DNA from: Alkalibacterium thalassium
Lineage (GTDB): Bacteria; Bacillota; Bacilli; Lactobacillales; Carnobacteriaceae_A
Direction of reading: 5' to 3'
DNA length: 37,658 nucleotides
Assembly (NCBI RefSeq): GCF_900101165.1
Contig: NZ_FNFK01000016.1
Coordinates: forward strand, 1 to 37,658
The position numbers were made by a program, and so were the translations under genes. Below the pieces are notes generated by a model that made no database searches, was not told where the DNA came from, and saw only the letters and a program-made list of their open reading frames with translations. This document shows positions 58 through 37,135 of this stretch, piece after piece; the stretch's first letter is position 1, and every line of letters starts with the position of its first letter.

Positions 58-213
58 CTCATATGGTCACAGTATGAGTGCCCATGGAGCTATAGGCTCT
101 GCCATGGGAGGGGTGATGGCACACCCTTAAACTTAAGGCTTGAACAAAACAGAAATGGCCTGCGTTCGACAAAGCACTTAAGAATCCCACTGCTTTAGCT
201 GTGGGAGTGTCAA
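1..213 (+). mobile_element. 3' part of an IS200/IS605-type element with right-end hairpin
   Basis: After the tnpB stop come about 125 nt without a gene, then a hairpin with stem TCCCAC (185-190) / GTGGGA (201-206) followed by GTGTCAA at 207-213. Such a subterminal hairpin is typical of the right end of these elements and doubles as the 3' part of the TnpB guide (omega) RNA. The exact right boundary is inferred to be near 213. The element ends only about 117 nt upstream of selD. Confidence 0.6.
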
Positions 214-225
214 TTATAAGACTGG

Positions 226-248
226 GATTCTTTTTCAAAAAAAGAATC
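226..248. repeat. Short perfect inverted repeat between the IS end and selD
   Basis: GATTCTTTTT (226-235) pairs with AAAAAGAATC (239-248) around a 3-nt loop. No T-run follows on either side, so it is not a clear terminator. It lies just beyond the IS right end, in the stretch that should hold the selD promoter. I see no convincing -35/-10 pair here. Confidence 0.4.
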
Positions 249-329
249 GACTTATCCTGTAACAGAATGAGTCTAGTAATGGTAAACTGTAGGTACATTG
301 ACCACCAATCAGGAAAGAAGGCATATATC

Positions 330-1370
330 ATGACTCAAGTTAAACTGACGACGCTTACTAAAAAAGGCGGCTGCGGATGTAAGATCGGACCGAGTGAACT
401 GCGCGAGGTTTTGCATACCCTGCCGGAAACAAAAAAAGATCCGAATCTTCTGGTCGGACTGGATACAGGAGATGACGCCGGGGTGTACAAACTGACGGAT
501 GACCTGGCCATCGTTCAGACGCTGGATTTCTTCACACCAATCGTGGATGACCCGTATGATTTTGGTCAGGTCGCAGCGGCCAATGCACTGAGTGACGTCT
601 ATGCAATGGGCGGTACACCGATCACTGCTTTGAATATCGTTGCCTTCCCTATCTTCAATCTGGATAAATCGATTCTGACAGAGATTCTTAGAGGGGCCAG
701 CGATAAGGTTCAGGAAGCCGGTTGTAATCTCGTAGGAGGCCATTCCATCGATGATCAGGAACCGAAATTCGGGCTGTCGGTAACTGGGACGATCCATCCC
801 GACGACATCCGGACCAATGCCGGAGCAAAACTGGGAGACAAGCTGATCCTGACTAAGCCCATCGGTGTAGGTATTTCCACTACGGCGCTTAAGCGGGGAC
901 TCTTAACTTATGACGAGATTCGTCGAGTGACGGCTGTGATGGCTACTCTGAATAAAGACGCGGCTGAAGTGATGAATGCTTATGATGTACACGCCTGTAC
1001 GGATGTGACCGGCTTCGGACTTCTTGGACATCTATCAGAAATGGCTGCAGAGAGTCATCAGGCGCTGATGATTATGAAAGACGATGTGCCGGTGCTGTCC
1101 CGTGTGCGTGATCTAGCTGAAGAAGGTGTCATTCCAGGAGGATCCAAGAACAACTTCAATCATGTGAAAGCGGTCGTTCACTTTGACGAACGGCTAGATT
1201 CGATCGACCAAATCATTCTAGCTGATGCTGTCACGTCAGGTGGCCTGCTGATGTCCGTCAATCCGGATGAGGCAGCGGCCATGATAGACGCCTTACAGAA
1301 TAAAGGCATCGACGCACGCATAATCGGTGAAGTCACAGATGGACAAGAAGGACATATTTATGTCAGATAA
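330..1370 (+). CDS. selD: Selenide, water dikinase (selenophosphate synthetase)
   Basis: SelD makes selenophosphate from selenide and ATP, the selenium donor for tRNA 2-selenouridine and for selenocysteine. The 346-residue product has the N-terminal glycine-rich active-site loop GGCGCK, with C15 and K18 matching catalytic C17 and K20 of the E. coli enzyme. The catalytic position is Cys, encoded normally, so this is not a selenoprotein form. The downstream blocks GLDTGDDAGVY and DVTGFGLLGHL are typical of SelD. I chose the ATG at 330 because AGGAAAGAAGG precedes it and the family N-terminus begins here; a longer in-frame extension would run into the IS right end. mnmH follows after 14 nt, and its ribosome site overlaps the selD stop. 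This points to selenium use for tRNA modification; selA and selB are not in the window. Confidence 0.95.
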   Translation: MTQVKLTTLTKKGGCGCKIGPSELREVLHTLPETKKDPNLLVGLDTGDDAGVYKLTDDLAIVQTLDFFTPIVDDPYDFGQVAAANALSDVYAMGGTPITALNIVAFPIFNLDKSILTEILRGASDKVQEAGCNLVGGHSIDDQEPKFGLSVTGTIHPDDIRTNAGAKLGDKLILTKPIGVGISTTALKRGLLTYDEIRRVTAVMATLNKDAAEVMNAYDVHACTDVTGFGLLGHLSEMAAESHQALMIMKDDVPVLSRVRDLAEEGVIPGGSKNNFNHVKAVVHFDERLDSIDQIILADAVTSGGLLMSVNPDEAAAMIDALQNKGIDARIIGEVTDGQEGHIYVR

Positions 1371-1384
1371 GAAAGGACTCTTCT

Positions 1385-2428
1385 ATGTTTAAAGATATTT
1401 CACCCTCGGACCTGTTTGAACTCAAAGAAGCCGGACACGTCGTCGTAGATGTCCGTGCGCCTAAGGAATTCAAGGAAGCAACGATCCCAGGAGCGATCAA
1501 TATTCCTCTGTTTTCAGACGAGGAACGTGCTCAAGTCGGAACGACATACAAGCATCAGGGGCAGGAGGCAGCGAAGGAGCTCGGACTGGAGATCTTTTCG
1601 AAGAAGCTGCCGGACTTTATCAGACAGTTCAAGGAGCTGAAGTCTCCGGTCACTGTCTTCTGCTGGCGCGGGGGGATGCGCAGCACAACTGCCGCTACAG
1701 TAACTGATTTGATGAATATCAAAGTCAATCGACTGACCGGCGGAATCCGAGCGTATAGAAACTGGATGAAAGAGCAGATCGACACGCTTCCCCTTCCTCC
1801 TTTTTATGTGCTGAACGGCCATACTGGAAATGGCAAGACTCATATCCTACGTCAGCTCAAACAGGAAAACTATCCTGTGATCGATTTCGAAGGCATGGCG
1901 CGTCACCGCGGATCCATTTTCGGTCAGATCGGTCTTGAACCCAGTAATCAGCGCATGTTCAATCTTCTTCTAGGTGAGGAACTCCTGCGGTACCAGCAGT
2001 CCCCCTATATCCTGGTAGAAGGCGAAAGTGCCCGTATCGGCAAAGTCATTATTCCAGAACGTATTTTTCAGCATAAAGAAATCAGCTCTCAGCTGGTCGT
2101 TGATCTGCCACTTGAAGAACGGGTCGCCATCATTCTTGACGACTATTCGCCTGATGCTTACCATAATGACTGTCTGCTGGCCTTTGAACGAATCAGACGC
2201 CGTATCCATACACCTGTATCAAAAGCGGTCGGCGAAGCCCTTGAAACAGGAGACTATCCGGAAGCAGTCAAGCTTCTTCTGACCTATTATTATGATCCGC
2301 ATTACAACCGATCGATCACACGGTCTGATGCACCGGAAACATCTATCGAGGCTTCAACTCTCGAAGAAGCTGTTGATAAGGTTAGGACGCAACTCGACAG
2401 TCTGAATAAGATCAGACAGCAAAACTGA
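1385..2428 (+). CDS. mnmH: tRNA 2-selenouridine synthase (MnmH/SelU)
   Basis: MnmH replaces the sulfur of 2-thiouridine at the wobble position of certain tRNAs with selenium, using selenophosphate and a prenyl (geranyl) donor. The 347-residue protein starts with a rhodanese domain (about residues 1-130) carrying the active Cys in FCWRGGMRS (C93). A P-loop domain follows with Walker A GHTGNGKT (residues 145-152). Length and domain order match the family (E. coli about 364). AAGAAAGGA overlapping the selD stop serves as ribosome site, so the two genes are probably cotranscribed and translationally coupled. The substrate supplier and the user sit side by side. Confidence 0.95.
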   Translation: MFKDISPSDLFELKEAGHVVVDVRAPKEFKEATIPGAINIPLFSDEERAQVGTTYKHQGQEAAKELGLEIFSKKLPDFIRQFKELKSPVTVFCWRGGMRSTTAATVTDLMNIKVNRLTGGIRAYRNWMKEQIDTLPLPPFYVLNGHTGNGKTHILRQLKQENYPVIDFEGMARHRGSIFGQIGLEPSNQRMFNLLLGEELLRYQQSPYILVEGESARIGKVIIPERIFQHKEISSQLVVDLPLEERVAIILDDYSPDAYHNDCLLAFERIRRRIHTPVSKAVGEALETGDYPEAVKLLLTYYYDPHYNRSITRSDAPETSIEASTLEEAVDKVRTQLDSLNKIRQQN

Positions 2429-3376: not shown

Positions 3377-3433
3377 AAATAAAGAGCTGTACAAGAACCA
3401 CCAACCTTGGTCTTCTAGTACAGCTCTTTATTT
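3377..3433. terminator. Bidirectional terminator shared by the membrane gene and the toxin gene
   Basis: AAATAAAGAGCTGTAC (3377-3392) pairs perfectly with GTACAGCTCTTTATTT (3418-3433), with additional pairing inside the loop. T-rich flanks lie on both sides. The right arm contains the last codons and stop of the toxin gene, so the hairpin overlaps coding sequence. Confidence 0.85.
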
Positions 3434-3720
3434 ATACGATCTACTGCTGCGTGATAAACGTATTGATTCTCCCGTTTACCTATTGCAATGACTTGTATGA
3501 TTTCCAGTCCTTCTTCGGATTCTCTAAATACAATCCTTAATCCAGCTTTCTTATGCTTCAGCTTTCTGCATCCCGTCATCTCCCCTTTTAAGGGTTGCCC
3601 AACCTCCATGCCATAGGACTGAAGCTTAGCTATGGATTTTCTCAACAGTATTTTTTGTGACCTGTTCAAAGATCGGAAGTCCTTCTTTGCCTCTTCGATA
3701 AACACAACGTCATAACTCAT
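3415..3720 (-). CDS. RelE/ParE-superfamily toxin
   Basis: The product is 101 residues and begins MSYDVVFIEEAKKDFRSL. The plan fits the RelE/ParE fold: N-terminal beta strand, two helices rich in Lys/Arg, then LKHKKAGLRIVFRESEEGLEIIQVIAIGKREN with the usual GLRIVF and IAIGKR strands. Members are mRNA interferases or gyrase poisons; the sequence alone does not decide which. I chose the ATG whose A is shared with the antitoxin stop (TAATG); a GTG nine nt upstream is in frame but has no better ribosome site. The gene is translated after its antitoxin and its stop codon is inside the terminator stem. Confidence 0.85.
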   Translation of the reverse strand: MSYDVVFIEEAKKDFRSLNRSQKILLRKSIAKLQSYGMEVGQPLKGEMTGCRKLKHKKAGLRIVFRESEEGLEIIQVIAIGKRENQYVYHAAVDRINKELY

Positions 3721-4055
3721 TAGTCCCACCCATTGTCGTCAGGGTCGTATTCGGCTTCAGCCAGTTCTTTACCCATAACAGCTTCCAGAGAAAAAGTTCT
3801 CACATCCTTTTGAGCATCCTGTGCCTTCAATCTTCGGGAAACCTCGTAATCCAGCAGTTCTTCTTCCAGATCATCGATTTTTTGAATAAGCGCCTCATAG
3901 TGCTGCTGGGTAAGCATAACACCGGCAACATTATCACGATTTAAGATATAGACCCCCTCATTTAATTCTTCAGCTTTCTTGAAGATATCCATCGGACTCT
4001 TCTTCACATCAGATATCGATCCTTTTGGAATATTTCCTATCAGTTCAAACGCCAT
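3720..4055 (-). CDS. Phd/YefM-type antitoxin
   Basis: The 111-residue protein has an N-terminal part in Phd/YefM style (residues 1-60: short strand, SISDVKKSPMDIFKKAEE, YILNRDNVAGVMLTQQHYEAL). An acidic helical tail ending DPDDNGWD should bind and neutralise the toxin. AAGGAGG lies in front of the ATG. The stop codon shares one base with the toxin start, the usual coupling for type II modules. Autoregulation is likely: a perfect 12-bp palindrome lies just upstream of a TATAAT -10 hexamer. Confidence 0.85.
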   Translation of the reverse strand: MAFELIGNIPKGSISDVKKSPMDIFKKAEELNEGVYILNRDNVAGVMLTQQHYEALIQKIDDLEEELLDYEVSRRLKAQDAQKDVRTFSLEAVMGKELAEAEYDPDDNGWD

Positions 4056-5389: not shown

Positions 5390-5417
5390 TTGACTAAAAT
5401 TAACAAAGGATTATATT
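5390..5417 (+). promoter_or_regulatory. Sigma-A-type promoter for the leader / BASS transporter unit
   Basis: TTGACT (5390-5395) and TATATT (5412-5417) are separated by 16 nt. Transcription would start near 5424, giving an untranslated leader of about 330 nt that contains the leader peptide and hairpins. The stretch 5260-5389 before it holds nothing I can identify. Confidence 0.6.
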
Positions 5418-5504
5418 TTTTGCTTGTATTCTCATTTTTTTCTCTTTATTATTTAACCTAATCACTTATCAGACAGTAATTTCTCTTTAAGGAAGGACAA
5501 ACTC

Positions 5505-5558
5505 ATGACTAGACAATCTTACTCAAGTTTAATTATCATTATTAGATTCAGGGCTTAA
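5505..5558 (+). CDS. 17-residue Leu/Ile-rich leader peptide
   Basis: ATG to TAA encodes MTRQSYSSLIIIIRFRA. The ribosome site AAGGAAGG (5489-5496) is placed eight nt upstream of the ATG. A Leu codon (TTA) is followed by four consecutive Ile codons (ATT ATC ATT ATT, 5532-5543), the hallmark of amino-acid attenuation peptides such as those of ilv operons. The stop codon is followed within 30 nt by two mutually exclusive hairpins and a terminator, then by the BASS transporter gene. The predicted role is sensing charged tRNA-Ile (or Leu) during translation. It is too short to be a functional protein by itself. Confidence 0.75.
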   Translation: MTRQSYSSLIIIIRFRA

Positions 5559-5584
5559 CACTGTATTTTTCTTACAGCTGTTCA

Positions 5585-5657
5585 AGTCCTATTCATGGTT
5601 GTTTATGAATGGGACTTAGGCCTCCCATTCTTTGTTTATAGAATGGGAGGCCTTTTT
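5585..5657 (+). promoter_or_regulatory. Attenuator: alternative hairpins plus intrinsic terminator
   Basis: Segment 1 AGTCCTATTCAT (5585-5596) pairs with segment 2 ATGAATGGGACT (5605-5616). Segment 3 AGGCCTCCCATTCT (5618-5631) pairs perfectly with segment 4 AGAATGGGAGGCCT (5640-5653), followed by TTTTT, a strong terminator. GAATGGGA of segment 2 is also perfectly complementary to TCCCATTC of segment 3, so a 2:3 antiterminator excludes both hairpins. The last leader-peptide codons (AGGGCTT, 5550-5556) can pair with AAGTCCT (5584-5590), linking ribosome position to the fold. No T-box motif is visible. The polarity of control cannot be settled by reading alone. Confidence 0.75.
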
Positions 5658-5757
5658 CTATTCCAGTTGGCTGTTTGACAATTTTTTCAGGAAGGAGAAT
5701 CTACCCGTGTCGACCGTTCGTTAATTTATTATCTACTTAGAAAAGGGGAATGATTTC

Positions 5758-7939: not shown

Positions 7940-7988
7940 TAAAAGCAGTAAAAAACCGTCTACTGTAGATGGTTTTTTACTGCTTTTA
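7940..7988. terminator. Bidirectional terminator after the dehydrogenase
   Basis: TAAAAGCAGTAAAAAACC at 7940-7957 pairs with GGTTTTTTACTGCTTTTA at 7971-7988, with more pairing inside (GTCTA/TAGAT). A/T tracts on both arms allow it to serve the convergent minus-strand transporter gene as well. Confidence 0.85.
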
Positions 7989-10435: not shown

Positions 10436-10580
10436 GTTTTTTATCTCCTTTTCTATTCCGTAGTTAATTTTTAACGTAATTCCGAAAGAAGTCTCCCACT
10501 TCTAAACGTGCAGGTGCAAAGCACCAGTGAAAGTGGGGGAAGAATTTCAGTCAAGCGATAGCTTGAAGTGGTTAATCTGT

Positions 10581-10623
10581 CCTTTCTGTTGTATACTATA
10601 TTCAGTAGTAATCAACAGAAAGG
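10581..10623 (+). promoter_or_regulatory. Hairpin sequestering the tnpA ribosome site
   Basis: CCTTTCTGTTG (10581-10591) pairs perfectly with CAACAGAAAGG (10613-10623), and the right arm contains the start of the AAAGGAAGTG ribosome site of tnpA. IS200-type elements are known to limit transposase translation this way. A TATACT hexamer lies inside the loop, so transcripts starting downstream of it would escape the hairpin. Confidence 0.7.
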
Positions 10624-10634
10624 AAGTGAAAACA

Positions 10635-11036
10635 ATGGAATTGGACAACAATAACCACTCAGTCTTCTCGATGCATTACCACCTTGTCTTAGTTACAAAG
10701 TATCGAAGAAAAGTCATCACGTCCTCTGTTTCGGATTATGCCAAAGATATGTTTCTAAGAATTAGTGCAAACTACAACATCGCTCTCATCGAATGGAATG
10801 AAGATAGAGACCACATTCATATCCTATTCAAAGCTCAGCCGAATACAGAATTGTCCAAATTCATCAATGCCTACAAAAGTGCCAGTTCTCGACTTATTAA
10901 AAAGAACTTTCCAGAAGTAAAGCAGAAATTATGGAAAGAAATATTTTGGTCGAGGAGTTTTTGCTTATTGACAACAGGCGGCGCTCCAATTGAAGTGATT
11001 AAAACATACATTGAAAATCAAGGCGAAGTGAGGTGA
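10635..11036 (+). CDS. tnpA: IS200-type Y1 single-strand transposase TnpA
   Basis: The 133-residue protein carries the HUH motif HIH (H60 and H62 in DRDHIHILFKA) and the catalytic Tyr Y125 in KTYIENQGE. MHYHLVLVTKYRRKV at the N-terminus and SASSRLIKKNFPE in the middle are standard for the family. Full length with no visible defect, so probably active. AGGAAGTG precedes the ATG; the ribosome site is partly in a hairpin stem. The stop codon overlaps a possible GTG start of tnpB. Confidence 0.95.
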   Translation: MELDNNNHSVFSMHYHLVLVTKYRRKVITSSVSDYAKDMFLRISANYNIALIEWNEDRDHIHILFKAQPNTELSKFINAYKSASSRLIKKNFPEVKQKLWKEIFWSRSFCLLTTGGAPIEVIKTYIENQGEVR

Positions 11037-11041
11037 CAACT

Positions 11042-12121
11042 ATGTTGAAGGCCTACAAGTACAGATTATACCCCACCGAACAGCAAAAAGACTACTTCGC
11101 CAATTGCTTCGGCTGCGCCCGCTTCATCTACAACCAAATGCTCAGCGACAAAATCGACCACTACAAAGAAACGAAACAAATGCTCCGCAATACACCGGCT
11201 CAGTACAAAAAAGAGTTTCCATTTTTGAAAGAAGTGGATAGTCTAGCCTTGGCGAATGCCCAACAGAATCTGGAAAGAGCCTATAAAAACTTTTTCCGAG
11301 ACAAGTCCGTCTGTTTCCCGAAGTTCAAATCCAAACACAAGTCAAAAGCGAGTTACACCACCAACAACCAAGGCGGAAATATTCGAATGGAAGACGGGAA
11401 AATCAAACTTCCAAAAATTGGTTTCGTGAAACTGAAGCAACACAGAAAGTTTGAAGGAGTCATCAAGTCGTGTACCATTTCCATGAACAAGTCGGGAACG
11501 TATTTCGTTTCTATTCTGGTGAAATCAGAAGAGGAGAAAATGGAATTCACCAAAAGGAAAATCGGGATTGATTTAGGAGTTTCCGATTTCGCTATCACCA
11601 CCAACGATTTAGGTGAGGTAAAGAAACACGAAAACCCCAAACATCTGTATAAAGCAGAAAAGCGACTCAAGAAAGCCCAGCGTTCGTTGTCCCGCAAACA
11701 AAAATGTGGGAAGAACCGAAACAAAGCCCGTTTGCAAGTCGCCAAGGAACACGAAAAAGTTTCTAACCAGCGAAAAGACTTCTTGCACAAACTAACGAAG
11801 AAAATTACAGACGAAAACCAAGTCATCGTAATCGAAACGTTGTCGAGCAAGAACCTGATGAAGAACCATAAACTGGCAAAAAGCATTGGCGATGCCGGAT
11901 GGTATGAGTTTGTCCGCCAGTTGGAATACAAGGCGGGACAAAAAGGCCGTACAATCATTAAAGCGGACAGGTTCTATCCATCTAGCCAGATGTGTTCTGC
12001 CTGCGGACACCGTGACGGCAAGAAACCCCTCCACATACGCCAGTGGGTGTGCCCACACTGTGAAGAATGCCTTGACCGAGACATCAATGCCAGTCAGAAC
12101 CTTTTGGCTTTGGCCAAGTAA
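11042..12121 (+). CDS. tnpB: TnpB, RNA-guided nuclease of the IS200/IS605 element
   Basis: TnpB cuts DNA next to a transposon-adjacent motif using an RNA made from its own 3' end, helping the element persist. The 359-residue product has RuvC residues D177 (GIDLGVSD), E265 (IVIETLSSKN) and D347 (DRDINASQ). The zinc finger CSACGHRDG...CPHCEEC lies between the last two. All catalytic positions are present, so it is likely active. I prefer the ATG at 11042 (family start LKAYKYRLYP, GAGGTGA upstream); a GTG at 11033 overlapping the tnpA stop is possible. Confidence 0.92.
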   Translation: MLKAYKYRLYPTEQQKDYFANCFGCARFIYNQMLSDKIDHYKETKQMLRNTPAQYKKEFPFLKEVDSLALANAQQNLERAYKNFFRDKSVCFPKFKSKHKSKASYTTNNQGGNIRMEDGKIKLPKIGFVKLKQHRKFEGVIKSCTISMNKSGTYFVSILVKSEEEKMEFTKRKIGIDLGVSDFAITTNDLGEVKKHENPKHLYKAEKRLKKAQRSLSRKQKCGKNRNKARLQVAKEHEKVSNQRKDFLHKLTKKITDENQVIVIETLSSKNLMKNHKLAKSIGDAGWYEFVRQLEYKAGQKGRTIIKADRFYPSSQMCSACGHRDGKKPLHIRQWVCPHCEECLDRDINASQNLLALAK

Positions 12122-36984: not shown

Positions 36985-37135
36985 GATCTTAACCTCCAAA
37001 TTTTCTTTTCAAGAATCAATTTTAAATTAGCTGCTTTCCATCGCTTCTAAGTTCCGTTAAAAGTAATAAGAAAGACTCTCTGTTGTTTGTTCCAAAACAA
37101 GTTTCCGGGGCTTATCATGGTGGCAAACAATACCA
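36985..37135 (-). promoter_or_regulatory. rplM leader, candidate L13-type autoregulatory RNA
   Basis: About 150 nt of untranslated leader lie between the predicted start of transcription and rplM. They contain short inverted repeats (for example TTGTTT...AAACAA around 37086-37104). Firmicutes rplM leaders often carry a structured RNA bound by L13. I could not match a consensus by eye, so this is tentative. Confidence 0.4.

Follow-up and report, generated by a model that had tools for sequence, protein, structure and literature searches.

The stretch of DNA analysed here (the window, 37,658 nucleotides from Alkalibacterium thalassium) carries genes for a BASS/PanS-like transporter and an iron-type alcohol dehydrogenase (Fe-ADH), preceded by a leader that comprises a short open reading frame and a series of RNA segments with alternative pairing partners (Table 1). 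The terminator-like hairpin downstream of the dehydrogenase gene is the likely end of the operon. Two candidate promoters were noted upstream of the leader; promoter-like matches in the scanned region numbered 8, versus 7.2 in shuffled sequences, and so were not above chance. A CodY box near the promoter, known from the ilv operons of Listeria and Staphylococcus, was also looked for: the best one in the window agreed with the consensus at 10 of 15 positions (p 0.82), and p ≤ 0.05 was reached in two of the 16 BASS leaders described below, which is not convincing. Between the leader terminator and the BASS gene there is a second strong Shine-Dalgarno (SD) sequence with a tiny GTG ORF (MSTVR; window 5690-5722), and small ORFs occupy the same place in the relatives L007 (MESEIFALP) and L020 (MESDILG). 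Elsewhere in the window an Rfam ribosomal protein L13 leader was detected (37080-37134, minus strand, 50.3 bits), and some ORFs resemble known genes when judged by eye: a neighbouring pair looks like IS200/IS605-type TnpA and TnpB (10527-12121, plus strand), and others look like selenophosphate synthase, SelU and a toxin-antitoxin pair (201-2428, plus strand, and 3415-4055, minus strand).

Table 1. Features of the leader and the operon (positions in the window)
Feature	Position	Strand	Basis or remark
Alternative candidate promoter TTGACT-16-TATATT	5390-5417	+	Promoter scan
Candidate promoter TTGTAT-17-TATTAT	5424-5452	+	By eye; like-spaced TTGTTT-17-TATTAT in L002
Ribosome site of leader peptide, SD AGGAAGG	5490-5496	+	Sequence
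Leader peptide ORF MTRQSYSSLIIIIRFRA and stop	5505-5558	+	Like-built ORFs at 15 further loci
Presumed sensor, four tandem Ile codons	5532-5543	+	Ile run of 2-5 in 16/16 BASS leaders
Segment 0 (last two codons, stop, upper stem)	5550-5565	+	Folding, covariation; pairs with 5573-5590, or by its 5551-5556 with 5618-5623
Segment 1	5573-5598	+	5573-5590 pairs with segment 0; 5584-5598 pairs with segment 2
Segment 2, contains GAATGGGA	5603-5617	+	Folding, alignment
Segment 3, terminator 5' arm	5618-5631	+	Folding, covariation
Segment 4 (terminator 3' arm, 5640-5653) and T run	5640-5657	+	Folding, covariation
BASS/PanS-like sodium-coupled transporter, 324 aa	5758-6732	+	Homology searches, residue comparison
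Iron-type alcohol dehydrogenase, glycerol-dehydrogenase-like group, 362 aa	6792-7880	+	Homology; BASS neighbour in 12/16 leader loci
Terminator-like hairpin 3' of dehydrogenase	7943-7985	+	Scan: 3 sites vs 2.3 expected

BASS homologues were collected at E ≤ 1e-60 from 395 genomes of the order, which gave 23 loci in 22 genomes, and the DNA upstream of every locus was read. A leader of the same plan with tandem Ile codons precedes the BASS gene in 16 of the 22 genomes, among them Marinilactibacillus psychrotolerans and M. piezotolerans of the family Carnobacteriaceae, so the peptide does recur in relatives, a point on which the original prediction depended. In the other six genomes (L028-L033; BASS proteins 35-55 % identical) no leader was visible within approximately 380 nt upstream. 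The distribution of the operon is patchy, with two carriers among 12 genomes of the genus.

The leader ORF begins with ATG at 5505, has a Leu codon at 5529-5531 directly before the Ile codons, and ends with TAA at 5556-5558; these coordinates agree with the peptide of one Leu and four Ile codons behind a good ribosome site that had been proposed from the DNA. The string IIII occurs in one of the 36 small ORFs preceded by an SD-like site on both strands of the window, and that one is the MTRQSYSSLIIIIRFRA ORF. A translated-looking short ORF with an SD sequence and a run of sensor codons, as in ribosome-mediated attenuators, is conserved in all 16 leaders, the first half of the peptide being variable and the Ile codons retained. 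Ile makes up 69 of the 276 residues of the 16 peptides (3-6 per leader), and accounts for 5.9 % and 3.3 % of the two downstream proteins. Leu contributes 27 of the 276 residues without forming a conserved run; in L004 and L006 it is at least as frequent as Ile. Judged from the peptides, the proposed Ile and Leu signal looks isoleucine-specific.

The region 5505-5680 folds at -60.5 kcal/mol in comparison to -34.9 ± 3.98 kcal/mol for shuffled sequences (z -6.43; 0 of 200 shuffles). The pairings 1:2, 2:3 and 3:4 and the strong terminator expected beforehand are all present in the folds, and GAATGGGA (5607-5614) and TCCCATTC (5623-5630) are indeed perfect complements. Folded alone, hairpin 1:2 (5584-5598 with 5603-5617) has -18.3 kcal/mol, 2:3 has -7.7 kcal/mol, and 3:4 (5618-5631 with 5640-5653), a stem of 14 bp followed by TTTTCT, has -26.8 kcal/mol. 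A further hairpin, 0:1 (5550-5565 with 5573-5590, -16.2 kcal/mol alone), includes the 3' end of the peptide ORF and is an addition to the anatomy described earlier.

The mutually exclusive hairpins and the intrinsic terminator are kept in the relatives. When folded singly, 0:1, 1:2 and 3:4 each form in all 16 leaders, and 2:3 takes the expected register in 14, as had been anticipated for relatives; it is shifted in L007 and weak in L023 in the stretch given. On the MAFFT alignment (A1) both sides changed in 8 of 8 pairs of 3:4 and in 5 of 14 pairs of 0:1. In 1:2 this occurred in none of the 10 pairs, half of which never vary, so the covariation suggested as a check on the hairpins was obtained for 3:4 and not for 1:2, on which, lacking any two-sided change, it is neutral, neither for nor against. 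For the structure 0:1 plus 3:4, 87.1 % of cells were paired and 37 were changed on both sides, and the covariation score was 0.372; shuffles gave 0.189 (0 of 500), and sliding the structure gave no more than 0.139. In 80 family rows (79 distinct) fitted to the model described below, 93.5 % of cells pair and 310 are changed on both sides, counts that lean to the structure because the alignment was fitted to it. Compensatory changes in the aligned leaders support the predicted hairpins 0:1 and 3:4. The sequence of segments 0-2 varies unusually little.

From the 16 BASS leaders alone a covariance model (R1) was built. In the order it matched 136 of the 395 genomes (E ≤ 0.01) and in the class 36 of 398 (E ≤ 1e-4); family f17, presumably the Staphylococcaceae, accounts for 29 of these 36. 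Sixty stretches were picked from the listed R1 matches, and their genes were classed by BLAST to 26 representatives, which in turn were named with NCBIfam. The match preceded BCAA uptake or synthesis genes in 54 of the 60, including the Listeria rli60 locus. In these 54 the first gene was ilvD or ilvB in 34 cases, a Liv substrate-binding protein gene in nine, leuA in eight, ilvE in two and BrnQ in one; in the other six it was RidA in three, Fe-ADH in two and an M20 peptidase in one, and the leader of the last (L088, MFNFGILLYLIL) is doubtful. Rfam assigns L096 and L097 to rli60 (173 and 183 bits), and R1, which gives L097 61.9 bits, recovers such ilv leaders independently of its training set. 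Among 15 related loci, four passed the Rfam rli60 gathering score. The bare pattern TCCTATTCN{3,25}GAATGGGA was found in 40 of the 395 genomes and its reversed control in 12, so it is the model and not the pattern that carries the family argument. The exact core is present in order in only 25 of the 80 family rows.

The sensor codons vary with the operon: Ile prevails for uptake and salvage, ilv has a mixture, and leuA has Leu. The run is composed of Ile, Leu and Val before ilv genes, of Leu in most leuA leaders (L103 is unclear), and of Ile or almost so before ilvE, Fe-ADH, BrnQ and RidA. Two of the 11 Liv leaders are Val-rich. At L069 (5596-5775 and 4063-4250, minus strand) and L091 (202-397 and 1759-1944, plus strand) tandem genes for Liv-type binding proteins have a leader each, one of every pair being Ile-rich (IIIII) and the other Val-rich (VVVIVI or VVVDAV), which suggests that these paralogues may serve Ile and Val separately. 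The ilvD-BASS operons at L119 (3398-3545) and L072 (1041-1188) are headed by an Ile/Val/Leu leader and have a second, Leu-only leader ahead of the following leuA-like gene; their BASS proteins are only 33-35 % identical to that of the window. Ile-only leaders stand ahead of RidA at L074, L094 and L109. RidA is an enamine/imine deaminase family linked to isoleucine precursors.

The homology of the two operon proteins was of limited help in naming a substrate. The transporter scored 234.4 bits with the PanS equivalog NF047939 (cut-off 400), and the dehydrogenase 230.6 and 224.9 bits with the PRK10586 oxidoreductase and glycerol dehydrogenase models (cut-offs 429 and 336). The closest solved structures to the BASS protein are the ASBT-NM entries. 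According to the ASBT-NM paper (PMC10645422), this protein binds pantoate and not ketopantoate, Thr112 and Asn265 mark pantoate-type sites and differ in keto-acid carriers, and Asn295, the neighbour of His294, contacts the terminal hydroxyl of pantoate. Thr112 and Asn265 are retained in the window protein and in 17 of 17 leader-linked copies, and the position of Asn295 is Thr in 16 of the 17. Since the pantoate-type residues are kept and Asn295 is replaced, we infer that the substrate may be a 2-hydroxy acid that lacks a terminal hydroxyl, e.g. 2-hydroxy-3-methylpentanoate. The Thr is not by itself diagnostic because the leaderless L028 and L029 carry it as well.

Searches for ilvD and ilvC, both positive in 14 of 14 controls, found neither gene in the window genome, an assembly of 124 contigs that is 99.12 % complete. 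ilvE was found (438.9 bits, above the cut-off), and from its gene content the source bacterium appears unable to make isoleucine or the other BCAAs. ilvC is present in 4 of the 16 leader-BASS genomes versus six of six leaderless ones, a comparison confounded by kinship. A tentative scheme, which we hold to be possible rather than probable, is that the BASS protein would import a branched 2-hydroxy (or 2-oxo) acid, the dehydrogenase would oxidise it to 3-methyl-2-oxopentanoate, and IlvE would aminate this to isoleucine; a route by way of 2-hydroxy-3-methylpentanoate fits the Ile-only sensor. A route from a hydroxy acid through 2-oxobutanoate to isoleucine was set aside because it requires the ilvC and ilvD that were not found in this genome. 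The Fe-ADH gene is not an invariable partner, being absent from beside BASS in 4 of the 16 leader loci.

The operon might instead serve something other than isoleucine salvage, such as pantoate/CoA supply or a by-product exchange linked to Ile by mere coincidence, with the attenuator itself real. This is a serious contender that nevertheless falls short of being probable: the transporter is nearest to the pantoate-binding PanS and ASBT-NM, the substrates of Fe-ADH enzymes are unreadable from sequence, and all NCBIfam matches lie below their cut-offs, but the sensor is Ile-only and the residue contacting the pantoate hydroxyl is replaced in nearly all leader-linked copies, as described above. 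Sister leaders, moreover, stand before Liv, BrnQ and RidA genes, before ilvE with an Fe-ADH (L065/L066, this enzyme being only 27 % identical to that of the window) and, in two genomes, before a 67 %-identical Fe-ADH without BASS.

How the leader would switch was analysed by equilibrium folding with an assumed ribosome footprint reaching 13 nt from the A site. In the classical three-hairpin scheme a ribosome stalled at the sensor codons masks segment 1 and thereby lets 2:3 form. All three of its pairings are present, but the distance from the start of the last Ile codon to the beginning of segment 1 is 44 nt in the window and 31-46 nt across the 16 leaders; since this exceeds the reach of approximately 13 nt, an Ile-stalled ribosome cannot mask segment 1. 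With segment 1 left free the three-hairpin model would always terminate, and in it the conserved 0:1 hairpin has no function. We consider this scheme very unlikely; a mechanism without segment 0 was ruled out on distance. Of the amino-acid attenuation architecture originally predicted, the attenuation itself has good support from conservation, covariation and the family, and the 1:2, 2:3, 3:4 logic on its own does not stand.

A role for segment 0 is consistent with the calculated folds. With the ribosome at the first Ile codon the calculated probability of 2:3 exceeded 0.7 in 12 of the 16 leaders, and with the ribosome at the stop codon 1:2 dominated in 14 (the exceptions are L023 and L034). 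The window is itself an exception in the first respect, since 2:3 reached only 0.01 with an Ile-stalled ribosome. Here the minimum combined 1:2 with 0:3 (5551-5556 with 5618-5623) at -30.7 kcal/mol, and the state 0:1 plus 2:3, at -28.2 kcal/mol, was hence not the minimum. Both states occupy segment 3 and both require a free segment 0. The pairing of segment 3 calculated for a ribosome standing where the Ile run begins, minus that for a ribosome at the stop, was on average 0.355 over the 16 leaders, in comparison to 0.037 ± 0.048 when the intervening RNA was shuffled; none of 100 shuffles reached the observed mean. In the window the difference was 0.34 (1 of 100 shuffles). Taken singly, nine of the 16 leaders passed at ≤ 5 of 100 shuffles and seven (L002, L006, L007, L019, L020, L025 and L034) did not, L002 being without effect. 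When segment 3 was defined differently, the difference was positive in all 16 leaders and above 0.2 in seven; by this definition 33 of 63 other family leaders were above +0.2 and four below -0.2. In silico, the terminator arm thus becomes more or less accessible with ribosome position, in the direction expected of an attenuator.

The mechanism proposed is as follows. When isoleucine is plentiful, the ribosome would reach the stop codon and cover segment 0; segment 1 would then pair with 2, leaving 3 free for 4, and transcription would stop at about 5657. When isoleucine is scarce, the ribosome would halt at the Ile codons and leave segment 0 free, so that 0:1 would form and segment 2 would capture 3, the terminator would be blocked and the operon read. 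In the window the equilibrium folds offer an alternative in which segment 0 itself would pair with 3 to the same effect.

That the ORF is incidental and the hairpins are read by a trans-acting factor or a small molecule, as in a T-box, PyrR-like control or a riboswitch, is hardly credible: it could draw on the invariance of segments 0-2 and on a sub-threshold PyrR match (29 bits, gathering score 54), but no Rfam family reached its threshold on the leader, a T-box (RF00230) was not matched anywhere in the window, the Ile codons stay while the first half of the peptide varies, and the codons of related leaders change with the operon. Very probably the leader works by ribosome-mediated attenuation of transcription, with charged isoleucine tRNA as its signal, and governs an isoleucine-salvage operon of the BASS and Fe-type dehydrogenase genes. 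We infer that it responds to isoleucine in the cell. It is possible, though somewhat less likely than not, that a single codon-swappable RNA module, used before Listeria-type ilv, leuA and BCAA uptake genes, was here placed before a hitherto unassigned route for uptake of 2-hydroxy-3-methylpentanoate (or its keto acid) by the BASS transporter and oxidation by the Fe-type dehydrogenase, which would be induced by isoleucine starvation alone and supply isoleucine through IlvE without ilvC and ilvD.

With an isoleucine signal assigned, a likely pathway would follow for a BASS/Fe-ADH pair for which homology does not reveal the substrate. It would also extend ribosome-mediated attenuation of BCAA genes from synthesis to uptake and salvage, and it offers a testable code in which the sensor codons of a leader point to the amino acid served by the neighbouring transporter or enzyme. 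Searches of a body of literature outside which most subscription journals lie turned up no paper on a leader of such build before a BASS transporter and nothing useful on YbdH/hydroxycarboxylate dehydrogenase, bacterial BASS proteins with 2-keto acids, or Lactobacillales leader peptides.

In the enteric amino-acid leaders (trp, his, ilvGMEDA, leu) a stalled ribosome decides between alternative hairpins. The principle proposed here is the same; the window leader differs by a segment 0 lying over the stop codon and by one extra hairpin, and its operon is for transport and oxidation whereas the enteric leaders control synthesis. Ribosome-mediated attenuation of BCAA synthesis is established in Gram-positive bacteria (PMC5864092, PMC5794164, PMC6123439). 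The ilv-leu leader of Listeria monocytogenes, rli60 (RF02414), is described in PMC5864092 as a 13-aa BCAA-rich peptide with a terminator and antiterminator, and L097 encodes a peptide of that length. The window leader scores 27 bits with this family (gathering score 60). Despite this it is kin to rli60, since R1 recovers the rli60 loci L096 and L097 and the 0:1 hairpin recurs in the latter, where it is based on AGGACTT/AGTCCT. Unlike the window leader, rli60 controls biosynthesis and uses Ile, Leu and Val codons, and four segments are described for it (PMC5864092). The ilvD attenuator of Staphylococcus aureus, as presented in PMC5794164, has an Ile/Leu-rich peptide, a terminator and a GAAUGG motif. 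It resembles the window leader in its Ile-containing peptide and terminator, and the f17 leaders look alike and share TCCTATTTC...GAATGGGA; it differs in preceding ilvD, in a longer peptide that contains both Leu and Ile, and in the other antiterminator fold proposed there (PMC5794164). Compared with these systems, and as far as the literature searched goes, the new features are the kind of operon under control, a sensor confined to Ile and, as a family-wide trait, the segment that overlaps the stop.
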